Below, one piece after another: positions 19,006-23,045 of a stretch of DNA of 40,993 nucleotides (positions are counted from its first letter, which is position 1; the number at the start of each line of letters is the position of its first letter). A program made the position numbers and the translations under genes. Below the pieces are notes generated by a model, which worked only from the letters and a program-made list of their open reading frames with translations, was not told where the DNA came from and did no database searches. The DNA comes from an uncultured Candidatus Saccharibacteria bacterium (GTDB lineage Bacteria; Patescibacteriota; Saccharimonadia; Saccharimonadales; Saccharimonadaceae), in assembly GCA_947305705.1 (NCBI GenBank), contig CAMZEB010000007.1:1-40993 (forward strand), read 5' to 3'.

Positions 19006-20247
19006 TTACTTCTGCCCTAGTTTAGCAACAAACTCGTCTAATGGCAAGAGTTTTGTTTCAGTTTCTGTGCGTTTCTTTAGTTCGACGCTTTTATCCGCAA
19101 GCGTTTTATCACTAATGACGATACGATACGGGATACCGAGCAAATCCGCATCTGCAAATTTTTCGCCATTACGCGCATTAGTGCGATCGTCAAAGATAAT
19201 TTGTTCAGGTGCTTTGTCGTGTAGCTCTGTTGCTACTTTCATTGCTTCGTCGCCAATGGCAACGACATAGTATTTGAATGGTGCGATCTCTTCTGGCCAG
19301 ACGAGACCTTTGTCGTCACTGAGCTTCTCTGCAATTACACCCATGACGCGGCTAGGACCGATGCCGTAGCTACCCATGAAGACTTTTTGGCGTTTGCCAT
19401 CTTCGTCGTTATATGTAAGGTCTATCGCATCAGAGAAGCGATAGCCGAGCGTAAAGATGTTGCCAACTTCGGCCGCCTTGCATTGTTCAAGCTTAGACTT
19501 ATCAAGGCCAAGATCAGCAAGGACTTCATCATTGTAGACTTCTTCATTAACGGCAATGCCTTTTTCGCGGTCGAGATAGATAATATCCTCGCCGACTTTA
19601 GTTAAAGTTTGGAATTCATCAGAATATTTACTAAAGGCGCCACCGCTCGCAAAAGTGCGGAAGGTATCATTACCGATACCGAGACGATTAAAGATCTTTT
19701 TATAGCTCTCGGCGCATTTTTCATAAAACTCGTCGTGCTCTTCGCGGTTTTTGCTAAAACTGTAAAGGTCCTTCATCATAAATTCGCGCGTACGCATAAT
19801 GCCAGATTTAGCGCGAAGCTCGTTACGAAATTTCGTCTGGAATTGGTAGGCGTAAACCGGGAGATCTTTGTAGCTAGAAATATAGCTCTTCATGAGACGA
19901 GTAAGTGGCTCTTCATGCGTGCAGCCGAGACCAAGCTCGCCGCCAGCATTAAGTTTTGTCTTAAACCAGACATCCATTACGTCGTCGCTCCAGCGGCCGC
20001 TAGCTTCCCAGGCATCGCGCGGTTGTAGGGCGGTCATCTTGAGTTCCTGGCCACCAATCGCATTCATTTCCTCGCGGATTACTTGCATGATTTTTTCGAG
20101 CGTAATCATGCCGAGCGGTAGATAGTCATAAACTCCTGCCATTTCTTTGTAGATATAACCGGCGCGGAGAAGTAGCTTCGCACTCTCACTCTGCTCATCG
20201 GCAGGTGCGGTTTTGGAAGTTTTCGTGAAGTTTTGACTAATTTTCAT
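19006..20247 (-). CDS. proS: Prolyl-tRNA synthetase lacking the INS editing domain
   Basis: 413 aa. The class II core has a TEHEP-like stretch (LGCTHEEPLTRLM), motif 2 in FRNELRAKSGIMRTREFMMKDLYSF, and motif 3 in GSYGIGPSRVMGVI; an anticodon-binding domain follows (about 320-413). Typical bacterial ProRS is near 570 aa and carries an INS domain between motifs 2 and 3 that hydrolyses Ala-tRNA-Pro. Here motif 2 and motif 3 are joined by only about 130 residues without an INS. The promoter gives a leaderless mRNA, and a structured RNA element lies just upstream. Confidence 0.96.
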   Translation of the reverse strand: MKISQNFTKTSKTAPADEQSESAKLLLRAGYIYKEMAGVYDYLPLGMITLEKIMQVIREEMNAIGGQELKMTALQPRDAWEASGRWSDDVMDVWFKTKLNAGGELGLGCTHEEPLTRLMKSYISSYKDLPVYAYQFQTKFRNELRAKSGIMRTREFMMKDLYSFSKNREEHDEFYEKCAESYKKIFNRLGIGNDTFRTFASGGAFSKYSDEFQTLTKVGEDIIYLDREKGIAVNEEVYNDEVLADLGLDKSKLEQCKAAEVGNIFTLGYRFSDAIDLTYNDEDGKRQKVFMGSYGIGPSRVMGVIAEKLSDDKGLVWPEEIAPFKYYVVAIGDEAMKVATELHDKAPEQIIFDDRTNARNGEKFADADLLGIPYRIVISDKTLADKSVELKKRTETETKLLPLDEFVAKLGQK

Positions 20248-20261
20248 ATTAATATTATAAC
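20233..20261 (+). promoter_or_regulatory. Plus-strand promoter-like sequence over the proS start
   Basis: TTGACT (20233-20238), 17-nt spacer, TATAAC (20256-20261). It overlaps the proS -10 on the other strand and would produce a transcript antisense to the structured RNA at 20270-20379. It could be chance in A/T-rich sequence. Confidence 0.35.
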
Positions 20262-20262
20262 A
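20254..20262 (-). promoter_or_regulatory. -10 box of proS, leaderless
   Basis: TATAAT (20259-20254) preceded by TGt, 6 nt before the ATG at 20247. No Shine-Dalgarno. Confidence 0.6.
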
Positions 20263-20269
20263 CAGGAGC

Positions 20270-20379
20270 GTTAGGTATGCGCTTCAGAAAACAGCGTTCA
20301 CTCAGCCCGTCGTTACGGGTGAGTGCCACTTCATGCTCGGCCGTAGCCTACGCAACGTTTCTTTAAGCGCATACCCAAC
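20270..20379 (-). ncRNA. Candidate structured RNA (about 110 nt), unknown family
   Basis: Closing stem P1 pairs 20365-20379 with 20270-20284 (15 bp). P2 pairs 354-362 with 286-290 plus 295-298 (offsets from 20000), with a 4-nt bulge. An 11-bp hairpin spans 20299-20325 with one bulged base, and a small hairpin spans 20339-20348. Two signs favour the minus strand: the one non-Watson-Crick pair in P1 is G-U there but A-C on the plus strand, and the small hairpin becomes a C(UACG)G tetraloop. TGATATGAT at 20396-20388 would start transcription at about 20380, the base of P1. There is no U-tract at the 3' end; it runs into the proS promoter. It does not look like SRP RNA, RNase P, tmRNA or a T-box. 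Confidence 0.55.
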
Positions 20380-20387
20380 ACTACTGC

Positions 20388-20396
20388 ATCATATCA
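20388..20396 (-). promoter_or_regulatory. Extended -10 promoter for the structured RNA
   Basis: TGATATGAT on the minus strand; the predicted start at about 20380 coincides with the first base pair of the RNA fold. No convincing -35. Confidence 0.45.
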
Positions 20397-20404
20397 ATAT
20401 GGAA

Positions 20405-20824
20405 TCATTCAACATCGAAATTTTCTGTTTTGAGGTCGCAATAGTAGCGGCCGCTTGTTGCAGTAAACTTTAAGACGCAATAGTCTGGATCGGTGACGCC
20501 TTTTTTATAAAACATCGTATCGCCACGTCGCCAAATCTCATTCTTTGTCTCTTGGTCGGTCAGAACTTCCATCTTACCTTTGAGCATAACGCCGACATAT
20601 TTAATCAGCCCTTTGCGATAAAAATATATGCTCGCCTTCGGGTTCTTCTTGTATTGCGCTACGCGCATCGACGAAGTGTTTGTTGAAAAGTAAAATTCTT
20701 TGAGACCTACCCGTTTTCGTGGCTTAAGCATCGCTTTTACGTTCGGGTATTTTTCGTCATCAACAGAGCAGACAAAACTAACTTTTTGTTTGTCGATAAA
20801 TTTTTCGATACTCGTCAGGTTCAT
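20405..20824 (-). CDS. Pyridoxamine 5'-phosphate oxidase-like flavin-binding protein
   Basis: 139 aa. The split-barrel pattern is clear: a start helix, KVSFVCSVDDEKYPNVKAM, a strand pair, STNTSSMRVAQYKKNPKASIYFYR, and the ending YCVLKFTATSGRYYCDLKT. This is the putative-PNPOx family, whose members bind FMN or another flavin and often act as small reductases; true PNPO function in vitamin B6 synthesis is unlikely at this length. Its ATG lies 1 nt after the ftsK stop, without a separate promoter, so it is translated from the ftsK message. Confidence 0.85.
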   Translation of the reverse strand: MNLTSIEKFIDKQKVSFVCSVDDEKYPNVKAMLKPRKRVGLKEFYFSTNTSSMRVAQYKKNPKASIYFYRKGLIKYVGVMLKGKMEVLTDQETKNEIWRRGDTMFYKKGVTDPDYCVLKFTATSGRYYCDLKTENFDVE

Positions 20825-20825
20825 A

Positions 20826-23045
20826 TTAACCTGGATATTCGTCCATTGACGTAATCAAAACGTCGCGTGGTTTATTGCCGCCCGTTGATGGGCCGACAAC
20901 ACCTTTTGCTTCGAGTTCGTCAATAATAGAAGCGGCACGGCCGTAGCCGATATGGAGCTGGCGCTGAAGAAGCGAAGTAGATAGCTTGCCGGCACGAATT
21001 GCGATTTCGGCAGCTTGGCGCTCGACGTCGCCACCACCACCCATATTCGAAGAAGCACCAGGCACACCAGGCATCGAAACTGACTGCGAAGTCACCTCGT
21101 CATTGTACTGAGGAGGGGCTTGTTGACGAAGGAAGTCTGCGATTTTGCCTATTTCTTTGTCACTCACAAATGCACCCTGGACACGACGCGGTTTGCCCAT
21201 CATCTCAGTGGTTAAGAATAGCATATCACCAGAACCGAGCAACTTCTCTGCGCCAACCGCATCAAGCATAACGCGCGAATCGACACCATTGTTTACCGCG
21301 AAGGCAATACGACCTGGGATATTTGCCTTAATAAGGCCCGTAACGACCTTGACCTCTGGACGTTGCGTTGCAAGTACTAGGTGAATACCAGCGGCACGGC
21401 CTTTCTGAGCAATGCGGACAATTAGCATTTCTAGCTCTTTGCCGGCCGTCATCATAAGATCTGCCATCTCATCAACAATTACGACGATATATGGCATCTT
21501 GCCATTGTTGTGCTCTTGAATATTGCCATCCTCGTCAGCGATTTCAACTTTTCCGCCCTGCTCGGACATCTTAGCATTGTAGTCCGTGATATTTTTGACG
21601 CGTTCTTTACTCATAAGAGTATAGCGTTTTTCCATCTCGCCGACTGCCCACTTCATCGCACTCAATGCCTTGTCGGTACTATTGATAACTGGCGCAAGCA
21701 AATGCGGGATGTCTTCATAGGCCGCCATCTCGACCTGCTTCGGGTCGACAATGATGAGCTTTAAATCGCTTGGCGAGTTGTGATATAGCAACGAGTTAAT
21801 TAGAACATTCGTCATCACAGATTTACCAGAACCAGTAGTACCAGCGATGAGAAGGTGAGGCATCTTTGCGAGATCGCCAACCACTACCTGGCCAGCAATA
21901 TCTTTACCAACCGTAAATGCGAGAGGTTTGTCCTGAATAATTTTGCGCCATTCAGCTGAACGTAGAAGCTCGTGAAGGCCAACACTTGCAGGCGTAATAT
22001 TTGGAACTTCGACACCGACCATATTCGTGCGCGGAATTGGCGCTTCGATACGAATCTTATCGGCAGCAAGTGCCATAGCAAGGTTTTTGTCATAGGCTAA
22101 TAGCTTGTTGACGCGAACGCCGGCAGGTGGACGAAGCGTATATTGCGTAATGCGTGGGCCGAGGTTTGCACCCTCAACAGTCACATCAATATCGAACTGA
22201 GCAAGCGTATCTTTGATAATGCGCGCATTCTCTTCCGTATTGCCAGGATCGGCAGGCGTAGTTTTGCGATTCAATAATTCTAGCGAAGGCATCTTCCAGT
22301 TCGGGTCAGATACTGCAACGAGCGCCATTGGCTCTTCGACGGTTTTGACCTCTTCCATTTCCTTCTTCTGGAAATGAGGCAAATCACGCTCTTTTTTATC
22401 ATTAACAGTCTCGACGTTGGCGACGACTTTGAAGTTGCCAAGGTCTTCTTTGTCGGACTTCTCTTTGTTCTTGCGCATAATACGTGCGTTTTCGGCATCT
22501 TCGTCGTTTTTGCTTGTCTTGAAAATCGAACCGATTTTGCGCATAAGTGCAAGCGGAGTTTCGGCATACATAAAGAGCGCGGTAATCAGTATCAATACAA
22601 TGTAGGCCATAATTGAAACGCCACTACCGAAGTTGCGAACAGCGAAGTTGTCCATGGTTTCGCCAATGATACCGCCAGTGCGGCTTGGCGTAGAATAGCT
22701 ACCAACACCAAATAGACCGCAGAACCAGATTATCATTAAGGCCGATGCGACCCAGACGCTCGCGTTGAGGCGATTGTTTGGAGCGCGGAATATCATAACG
22801 GCGATATAGACTAACACAAATGGGAATAAGTAAGTCGTGTAGCCGAATGCGTAATCGCAGAATGATTTGAATTCTTGCAAAAATACTGCGTTTTGACCTG
22901 CGCCAAACCACATCGCTACAAATGTAACTGCAAATAATAGGAAAATGATTGCTAACGCTTGGTGCCAAAAGCCGCCCGGTAATTCATGTTTCGGGATTTC
23001 TTCTTTGGCTGATTTGCGTTTTCTACCTCGCTTCTTCTGTGCCAT
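20826..23045 (-). CDS. ftsK: DNA translocase FtsK/SpoIIIE
   Basis: 739 aa. A basic N-terminus and four transmembrane helices (about 27-175) anchor it at the septum. A charged linker is followed by the motor with Walker A GTTGSGKS (about 405) and the Walker B segment PYIVVIVDEMADLM. The C-terminal winged-helix gamma domain (IRAGKLSTSLLQRQLHIGYGRAASIIDELE) normally reads polar sequences that direct chromosome pumping. It clears DNA from the closing septum. Leaderless promoter; the PNPOx-like gene follows in the same transcript. Confidence 0.97.
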   Translation of the reverse strand: MAQKKRGRKRKSAKEEIPKHELPGGFWHQALAIIFLLFAVTFVAMWFGAGQNAVFLQEFKSFCDYAFGYTTYLFPFVLVYIAVMIFRAPNNRLNASVWVASALMIIWFCGLFGVGSYSTPSRTGGIIGETMDNFAVRNFGSGVSIMAYIVLILITALFMYAETPLALMRKIGSIFKTSKNDEDAENARIMRKNKEKSDKEDLGNFKVVANVETVNDKKERDLPHFQKKEMEEVKTVEEPMALVAVSDPNWKMPSLELLNRKTTPADPGNTEENARIIKDTLAQFDIDVTVEGANLGPRITQYTLRPPAGVRVNKLLAYDKNLAMALAADKIRIEAPIPRTNMVGVEVPNITPASVGLHELLRSAEWRKIIQDKPLAFTVGKDIAGQVVVGDLAKMPHLLIAGTTGSGKSVMTNVLINSLLYHNSPSDLKLIIVDPKQVEMAAYEDIPHLLAPVINSTDKALSAMKWAVGEMEKRYTLMSKERVKNITDYNAKMSEQGGKVEIADEDGNIQEHNNGKMPYIVVIVDEMADLMMTAGKELEMLIVRIAQKGRAAGIHLVLATQRPEVKVVTGLIKANIPGRIAFAVNNGVDSRVMLDAVGAEKLLGSGDMLFLTTEMMGKPRRVQGAFVSDKEIGKIADFLRQQAPPQYNDEVTSQSVSMPGVPGASSNMGGGGDVERQAAEIAIRAGKLSTSLLQRQLHIGYGRAASIIDELEAKGVVGPSTGGNKPRDVLITSMDEYPG

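Follow-up and report, generated by a model that had tools for sequence, protein, structure and literature searches.

A probable mobile palindromic DNA element of Saccharibacteria with a conserved core and arms particular to each locus

We analysed a 40,993-nucleotide stretch of Saccharibacteria DNA (contig CAMZEB010000007.1, hereafter the window, meaning the stretch at its full length). The feature that lies between its PNPOx-like gene and proS is, with a probability of about 0.72, a copy of a small mobile palindromic DNA element, non-autonomous and belonging to a single Saccharibacteria family, selfish in character, similar in kind to the Rickettsia palindromic element (RPE) and to MITEs, and with arms that are regenerated at each locus. 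This explanation is weakened by compensatory change in the arms, since selection for folding could produce it by itself. The element would have no evident host function in the Saccharibacteria, a group of reduced, host-dependent bacteria, and would behave as selfish DNA.

The minus strand of the feature (20379..20270) folded with a minimum free energy of -56.2 kcal/mol, compared with -31.2 +/- 3.1 kcal/mol for 200 shuffled sequences (z -8.06), none of which was as low, and the plus strand of 20270-20379 gave a weaker fold (-44.4 kcal/mol). The minus-strand structure consisted of a 15-bp closing stem, an inner stem, a 5+6-bp hairpin with a single bulged C and the cap CCCGUAACGACGGG, and a small hairpin, GGC(UACG)GCC. 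These are the stems that had been drawn in a preliminary description of this DNA. The coordinates given there, 20270-20379, hold for the visible stem but not for the full palindrome, which, judged by alignment and fold, extends outward on both sides of the 15-bp stem to about 20236..20404 (Table 1). The local score of the outer flanks alone was reached by 6 of 2000 shuffles. On the outer 5′ side, CATATTGATATGATGCAGTAGT repeats, imperfectly and in inverted orientation, what stands on the 3′ side, namely the proS promoter (TGTGTTATAATATTAATATG) together with the start codon of proS; the match has a gap of 3 nt. The extended -10 that had been used to set the 5′ end of a supposed transcript is there because this side mirrors the proS promoter.

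Table 1. Positions of the element, its parts and the adjoining genes in the window
Feature	Coordinates	Strand	Details and basis
Whole palindromic element with arms	20236..20404	-	~35 imperfect pairs outside core; arm lengths 35/33; alignment + fold
Closing stem (15 bp), 5′ arm	20365..20379	-	Fold
Closing stem (15 bp), 3′ arm	20270..20284	-	Fold
Family core	20281..20366	-	Covariance model R1 match, 81.3 bits, E 2.6e-23
Hairpin P2	20334..20354	-	UGC-GUA-GGC(UACG)GCC-GA-GCA, conserved internal loop GNA/GA; fold + alignment
Hairpin P3	20293..20330	-	Lower and middle stem variable, covarying; conserved cap CCCGUAACGACGGG and bulged C; fold + alignment
Outer 5′ arm	20380..20404	-	Inverted image of proS promoter and start codon; contains apparent extended -10; alignment
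Outer 3′ arm	20245..20269	-	proS promoter (TG-T-TATAAT, 20262-20254) and ATG (20247-20245); sequence + alignment
PNPOx-like gene, upstream of element	20405..20824	-	PF01243; Pfam
proS, downstream of element	19006..20247	-	Own promoter

A DNA search with the core found five more matches in the genome of the window and many in the genus. Further searches were made with a covariance model built from 24 copies, the E-values of which are rough, in a sample of one genome per species, many of them draft. The results showed 8 copies in the window's own genome, where the preliminary description had suggested looking for them, matches in 31 of the 45 genomes of the genus and, across the family, matches in 118 of 295 sampled genomes, with 13 of 61 genera represented; several genomes hold at least 15 copies, scoring being limited to 15 candidates. 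Over the whole phylum, just three weak single matches were found outside the family. The exact core pattern occurred, among named genomes, in Saccharibacteria alone; where titles state a source, it is mostly the gut or the rumen. It had no match in viral contigs, and a link to phages was rejected on this ground. What is conserved is a core of some 70-85 bp, which folds into a three-way junction and has two conserved hairpins. It is dispersed: single genomes hold as many as 14 copies or more, and near-identical cores occur at unrelated loci. The earlier suggestion of a MITE-like element with terminal inverted repeats came close, in that this is a multi-copy mobile palindromic element; the terminal repeats differ between copies, and so the element is not a classical MITE.

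Some copies lie close to each other. At one locus of G000 (L070, C1 266604-266830), one element and its left arm form a tandem direct duplication with a period of 139 bp. Close pairs of elements, separated by 33-59 nt, were seen at seven loci (L072, L076, L078, L080, L092, L093 and L100) and are arranged head to head without exception; six of the seven join a copy capped by GTGAAGAC or GTAAAGAC with a copy of a different cap type.

The pairing is strongly supported by covariation, the check that had been proposed for the fold. Across 74 aligned copies, 93.8% of the cells were paired and changes on both sides were found in 28 of the 29 pairs; the cells with double changes numbered 662, compared with 196 in shuffled alignments and 77-122 when the partner was slid. 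Because this alignment had been fitted to the model, it is biased in the model's favour; an initial MAFFT alignment that made no use of structure showed the same (147 versus 53 shuffled). The internal loop GNA/GA of P2 and the cap CCCGUAACGACGGG and bulged C of P3 are conserved across copies; in the closing stem and the middle part of P3, the sequence changes freely but pairing is retained. With the inner 8 bp set aside, the arms contained 137 G.T pairs against 56 A.C pairs, with a G.T excess in 44 elements and a deficit in 12 under symmetric scoring. The G-U rather than A-C pair that had been taken as a strand cue in the window is thus part of a family-wide bias, which shows a preference for folding of the core's own strand, either as RNA or as single-stranded DNA.

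A covariance search of the window element against the Rfam 15 models gave zero matches at the gathering threshold and at E 10. Sites resembling a -10 were no commoner 5′ of the family copies than in shuffled sequences, which takes away the promoter cue of the preliminary description, and its suggestion of a free small RNA has neither such promoter enrichment nor a terminator behind it. A proS leader, which had also been proposed, was rejected, as the element is placed upstream of the extended -10 of proS itself (TGTTATAAT, 20262-20254) and most relatives have no element at the ftsK-proS junction. A role as terminator only was rejected as well, other copies being found between divergent promoters. 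The copies occupy every intergenic class, in either orientation to the genes, and at one locus in two species (L051 against L108; G037 against G023) the core is inverted relative to its flanks. Taken together with the lack of -10 enrichment, these findings make a dedicated transcript from the elements unlikely.

The very strong covariation, the strand bias, which indicates that one-strand folding matters, and the presence of some slots common to several species would all suit a conserved structural RNA, or single-stranded DNA hairpin, that has a host function, has been duplicated and is kept by selection, its arms co-evolving by compensatory mutation. We consider this improbable, as such an RNA is hard to reconcile with the missing promoter enrichment, the free orientation and placement of the copies, the orientation flips, the mostly antisense position of the copies inside genes, and the many genomes of the genus that hold no copy at all.

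Almost all copies are flanked by inverted-repeat arms of 15-55 bp that match each other and no other copy, 2 or 3 of 73 copies having no detectable arms. The median complementarity score of the two arms within a copy was 18.5, compared with 1.0 (95% point 4.0) for arms taken from different copies. Five loci of G300 carry 69-nt cores that are 99-100% identical, and their arms are 28-59% alike position by position; similarly, two loci of G022 (L082 and L085) share the same core and have unrelated arms. In the related genome G032, of which about 723 kb is readable (the sequence was assembled from stretches, and 72 kb of one contig and one entire 3-kb contig are N), all inverted repeats of at least 16 bp contain a core, the others being ordinary terminators of 14-15 bp. 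The occurrence of identical cores with unrelated arms, together with the lack of long bare palindromes in G032, suggests that formation of the arms most probably coincided with, or followed, the arrival of the core.

Several loci look as if the core had instead entered existing hairpins or terminators, in which case the arms would be the old stem of the target: the slots of L074 and L092 contain ordinary terminators in G032, the arms of L095 and L011 resemble an A-tract/T-tract terminator, one copy in G022 may be nested within the stem of another copy, and at least one bare palindrome is present in a lepA linker (L293). This alternative is nevertheless doubtful, since the terminators of G032, at 14-15 bp, are well short of arms of 20-45 bp, and since the arms extend over parts of promoters, stop codons and coding sequence.

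The proS promoter forms the 3′ arm in the window and is found at the same position in element-free relatives; the 5′ arm is therefore probably the copy. In lepA, many copies have an upstream arm coding for a GPxP stretch, shared with element-free lepA, and a downstream arm that is the reverse complement of the upstream one. Co-evolution of the outer coding flanks of lepA, which are conserved, was only weak (16 of 601 permutations), and this counts against the explanation.

Locally made arms could be explained if fold-back (snap-back) synthesis or template switching were primed by a core once it has landed in DNA, the flank on one side being copied, inverted, onto the opposite side; for the window, this would make the side with the proS promoter the original and the PNPOx side its copy. 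We infer that this is the simplest mechanism for the arms, whose pairing might be maintained by repeated template switching, by selection for folding of one strand, or by both. As to how the element moves, we tentatively propose, as a possibility short of even odds, that the core of ~70 bp alone is mobile and that each copy builds its arms from the local flank by self-primed fold-back synthesis, so mirroring adjacent promoters, stop codons and coding sequence.

Two observations concern the later fate of individual copies. The inverted core of L051 relative to L108 fits what is expected from recombination between the arms. A comparison of G008 (L164 1560-1800) with G032 (C2 57165-57490) indicated that the core was lost in G008, where a bare 20-bp hairpin remains.

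In the genus of the window, the copies are intergenic and often fill the space from the end of a gene to the promoter that follows, and none was found inside conserved genes. Some of the shared slots are an empty junction or hold a plain terminator in G032, which is ~80% identical at most loci, so that junctions are placed approximately. No clean direct repeat indicative of a target-site duplication was seen at the element junctions in comparison with G032, the boundaries being blurred by the arms. At the ftsK-proS junction, most relatives have neither the element nor the PNPOx-like gene; G000 has the PNPOx gene and the element, G008 has a serine hydrolase gene and an element, and in G032 the junction is empty, the adjoining ftsK end being 95.6% identical to that of G008. 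This junction could suggest a gene-cassette recombination site, gene and element being inserted as a unit like an integron cassette with its attC. We find that highly unlikely: for most copies the accompanying gene is missing, the second candidate slot (murD-uvrB) has homologous genes and not different cassettes, the arms are not conserved boxes, and the copies are dispersed and form no arrays. The two genes inserted at ftsK-proS (window 20240-20830; L127 820-1500) are different, each is followed by an element, and both start at the same TTAATATG context.

A mobile element of this kind would be tolerated between genes and, in a sister genus, also in frame in the linkers of conserved proteins. 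There, 15 of the 20 copies fetched lie in frame within open conserved genes, namely mnmA, pheT, lepA, trmD, der, dnaX and polA, several of which were confirmed by Pfam and NCBIfam, and most of the proteins show an extra segment when aligned to those of G032. Of 30 lepA loci fetched, 15 had an element at one and the same linker, in either orientation. Every in-frame copy keeps the reading frame open, which argues that the inserts are probably translated and not spliced out or bypassed.

The same linker of lepA (EF4) is also the site of other changes. At four loci of the sister genus, L292, L298, L301 and L303, lepA exists as two separate genes, divided at the linker that bears the element in other genomes; the gene between the halves is histidine-phosphatase-like, or HD-domain-like in L301, and the second half has a new promoter. 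At L293, L283, L294, L295, L296 and L300, the linker holds other inserts without the core, at least two of which (L293 and L296) are palindromic, suggesting further element families or remnants.

Two enzymes were considered as drivers of the movement; that no transposase or other enzyme could be linked to the element weakens the favoured explanation. Reverse transcriptase is present in many genomes of the sister genus and was rejected, as it is missing from G000, G032, G043, G012 and G040, which hold 6-14 copies. A Pfam-detectable Y1/RAYT transposase was rejected also: Y1_Tnp was found in 4 of the 45 genomes of the genus (G005, G021, G031 and G042), all of them element-free, and in 0 of 16 element-rich relatives. 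This distribution means that a REP/REPIN element moved by such a transposase can hardly be the explanation, even though dispersed palindromes and head-to-head pairs 33-59 nt apart would suit it. The bearers of the Saccharibacteria element have no RAYT, and its three-way junction and locus-specific arms likewise set it apart from REP/REPIN-RAYT systems, with which it shares dispersed palindromes, sometimes in inverted pairs.

Integron attC sites are comparable in being structure-based hairpins that can lie on the 3′ side of a gene insertion; the Saccharibacteria element differs in having no cassette arrays or R-box conservation, and its base is variable and its tip conserved, the reverse of attC. 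Bacterial MITEs such as Correia/NEMIS, ERIC, RUP and BOX are likewise short, dispersed, non-autonomous, foldable and mostly intergenic. MITEs are bounded by conserved terminal inverted repeats and, as a rule, by target-site duplications, whereas the present element has no conserved terminal repeats and is a MITE in the loose sense only.

A literature search on Saccharibacteria palindromes and Patescibacteria MITEs found nothing relevant in searchable papers. The closest known kind appears to be the RPE, reportedly described by Ogata and co-workers in 2000 and 2002. Both elements measure about 105-150 bp, form a long stem-loop, occur in many copies, intergenic as well as in frame, have no known enzyme and live in a reduced-genome, host-dependent bacterium. 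Our data show dispersed palindromes of ~100-150 bp together with in-frame insertion, the latter in the sister genus (15/20) and not in the window's own genus. RPEs are long stem-loops of 105-146 bp in frame within protein genes, and descriptions of them treat the arms as the element's terminal inverted repeats, belonging to the conserved sequence (PMC2229807; PMC10969869). By comparison, every locus of the Saccharibacteria element has arms of its own, and the copies share only the core of about 70-85 bp; the core is a three-way junction of different sequence, and the phylum is different. In the mitochondria of Nematomorpha, coding palindromes have been proposed to be made and kept by template switching or repeat conversion (PMC6649704). 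These too are locus-specific inverted repeats in protein genes, but they have no shared mobile core, and their arms are perfect and up to 284 bp long.

The covariation of the family is as strong as in real RNA families, and copies of the element therefore risk being misread as structured RNA, which would mislead. The predicted extra peptides in LepA, TrmD, PheT, Der, MnmA and DNA polymerase I, lying in conserved proteins, would affect gene annotation and the view of protein evolution in the phylum. An element with a moving core and self-built arms would be, to our knowledge, the first of its kind to be described. Arms made at the site would offer a testable answer to how long palindromes in genes originate and persist, a question that has been open since the Rickettsia elements. 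If it holds true, a moving core with self-built arms could explain protein-coding palindromes in several reduced genomes.
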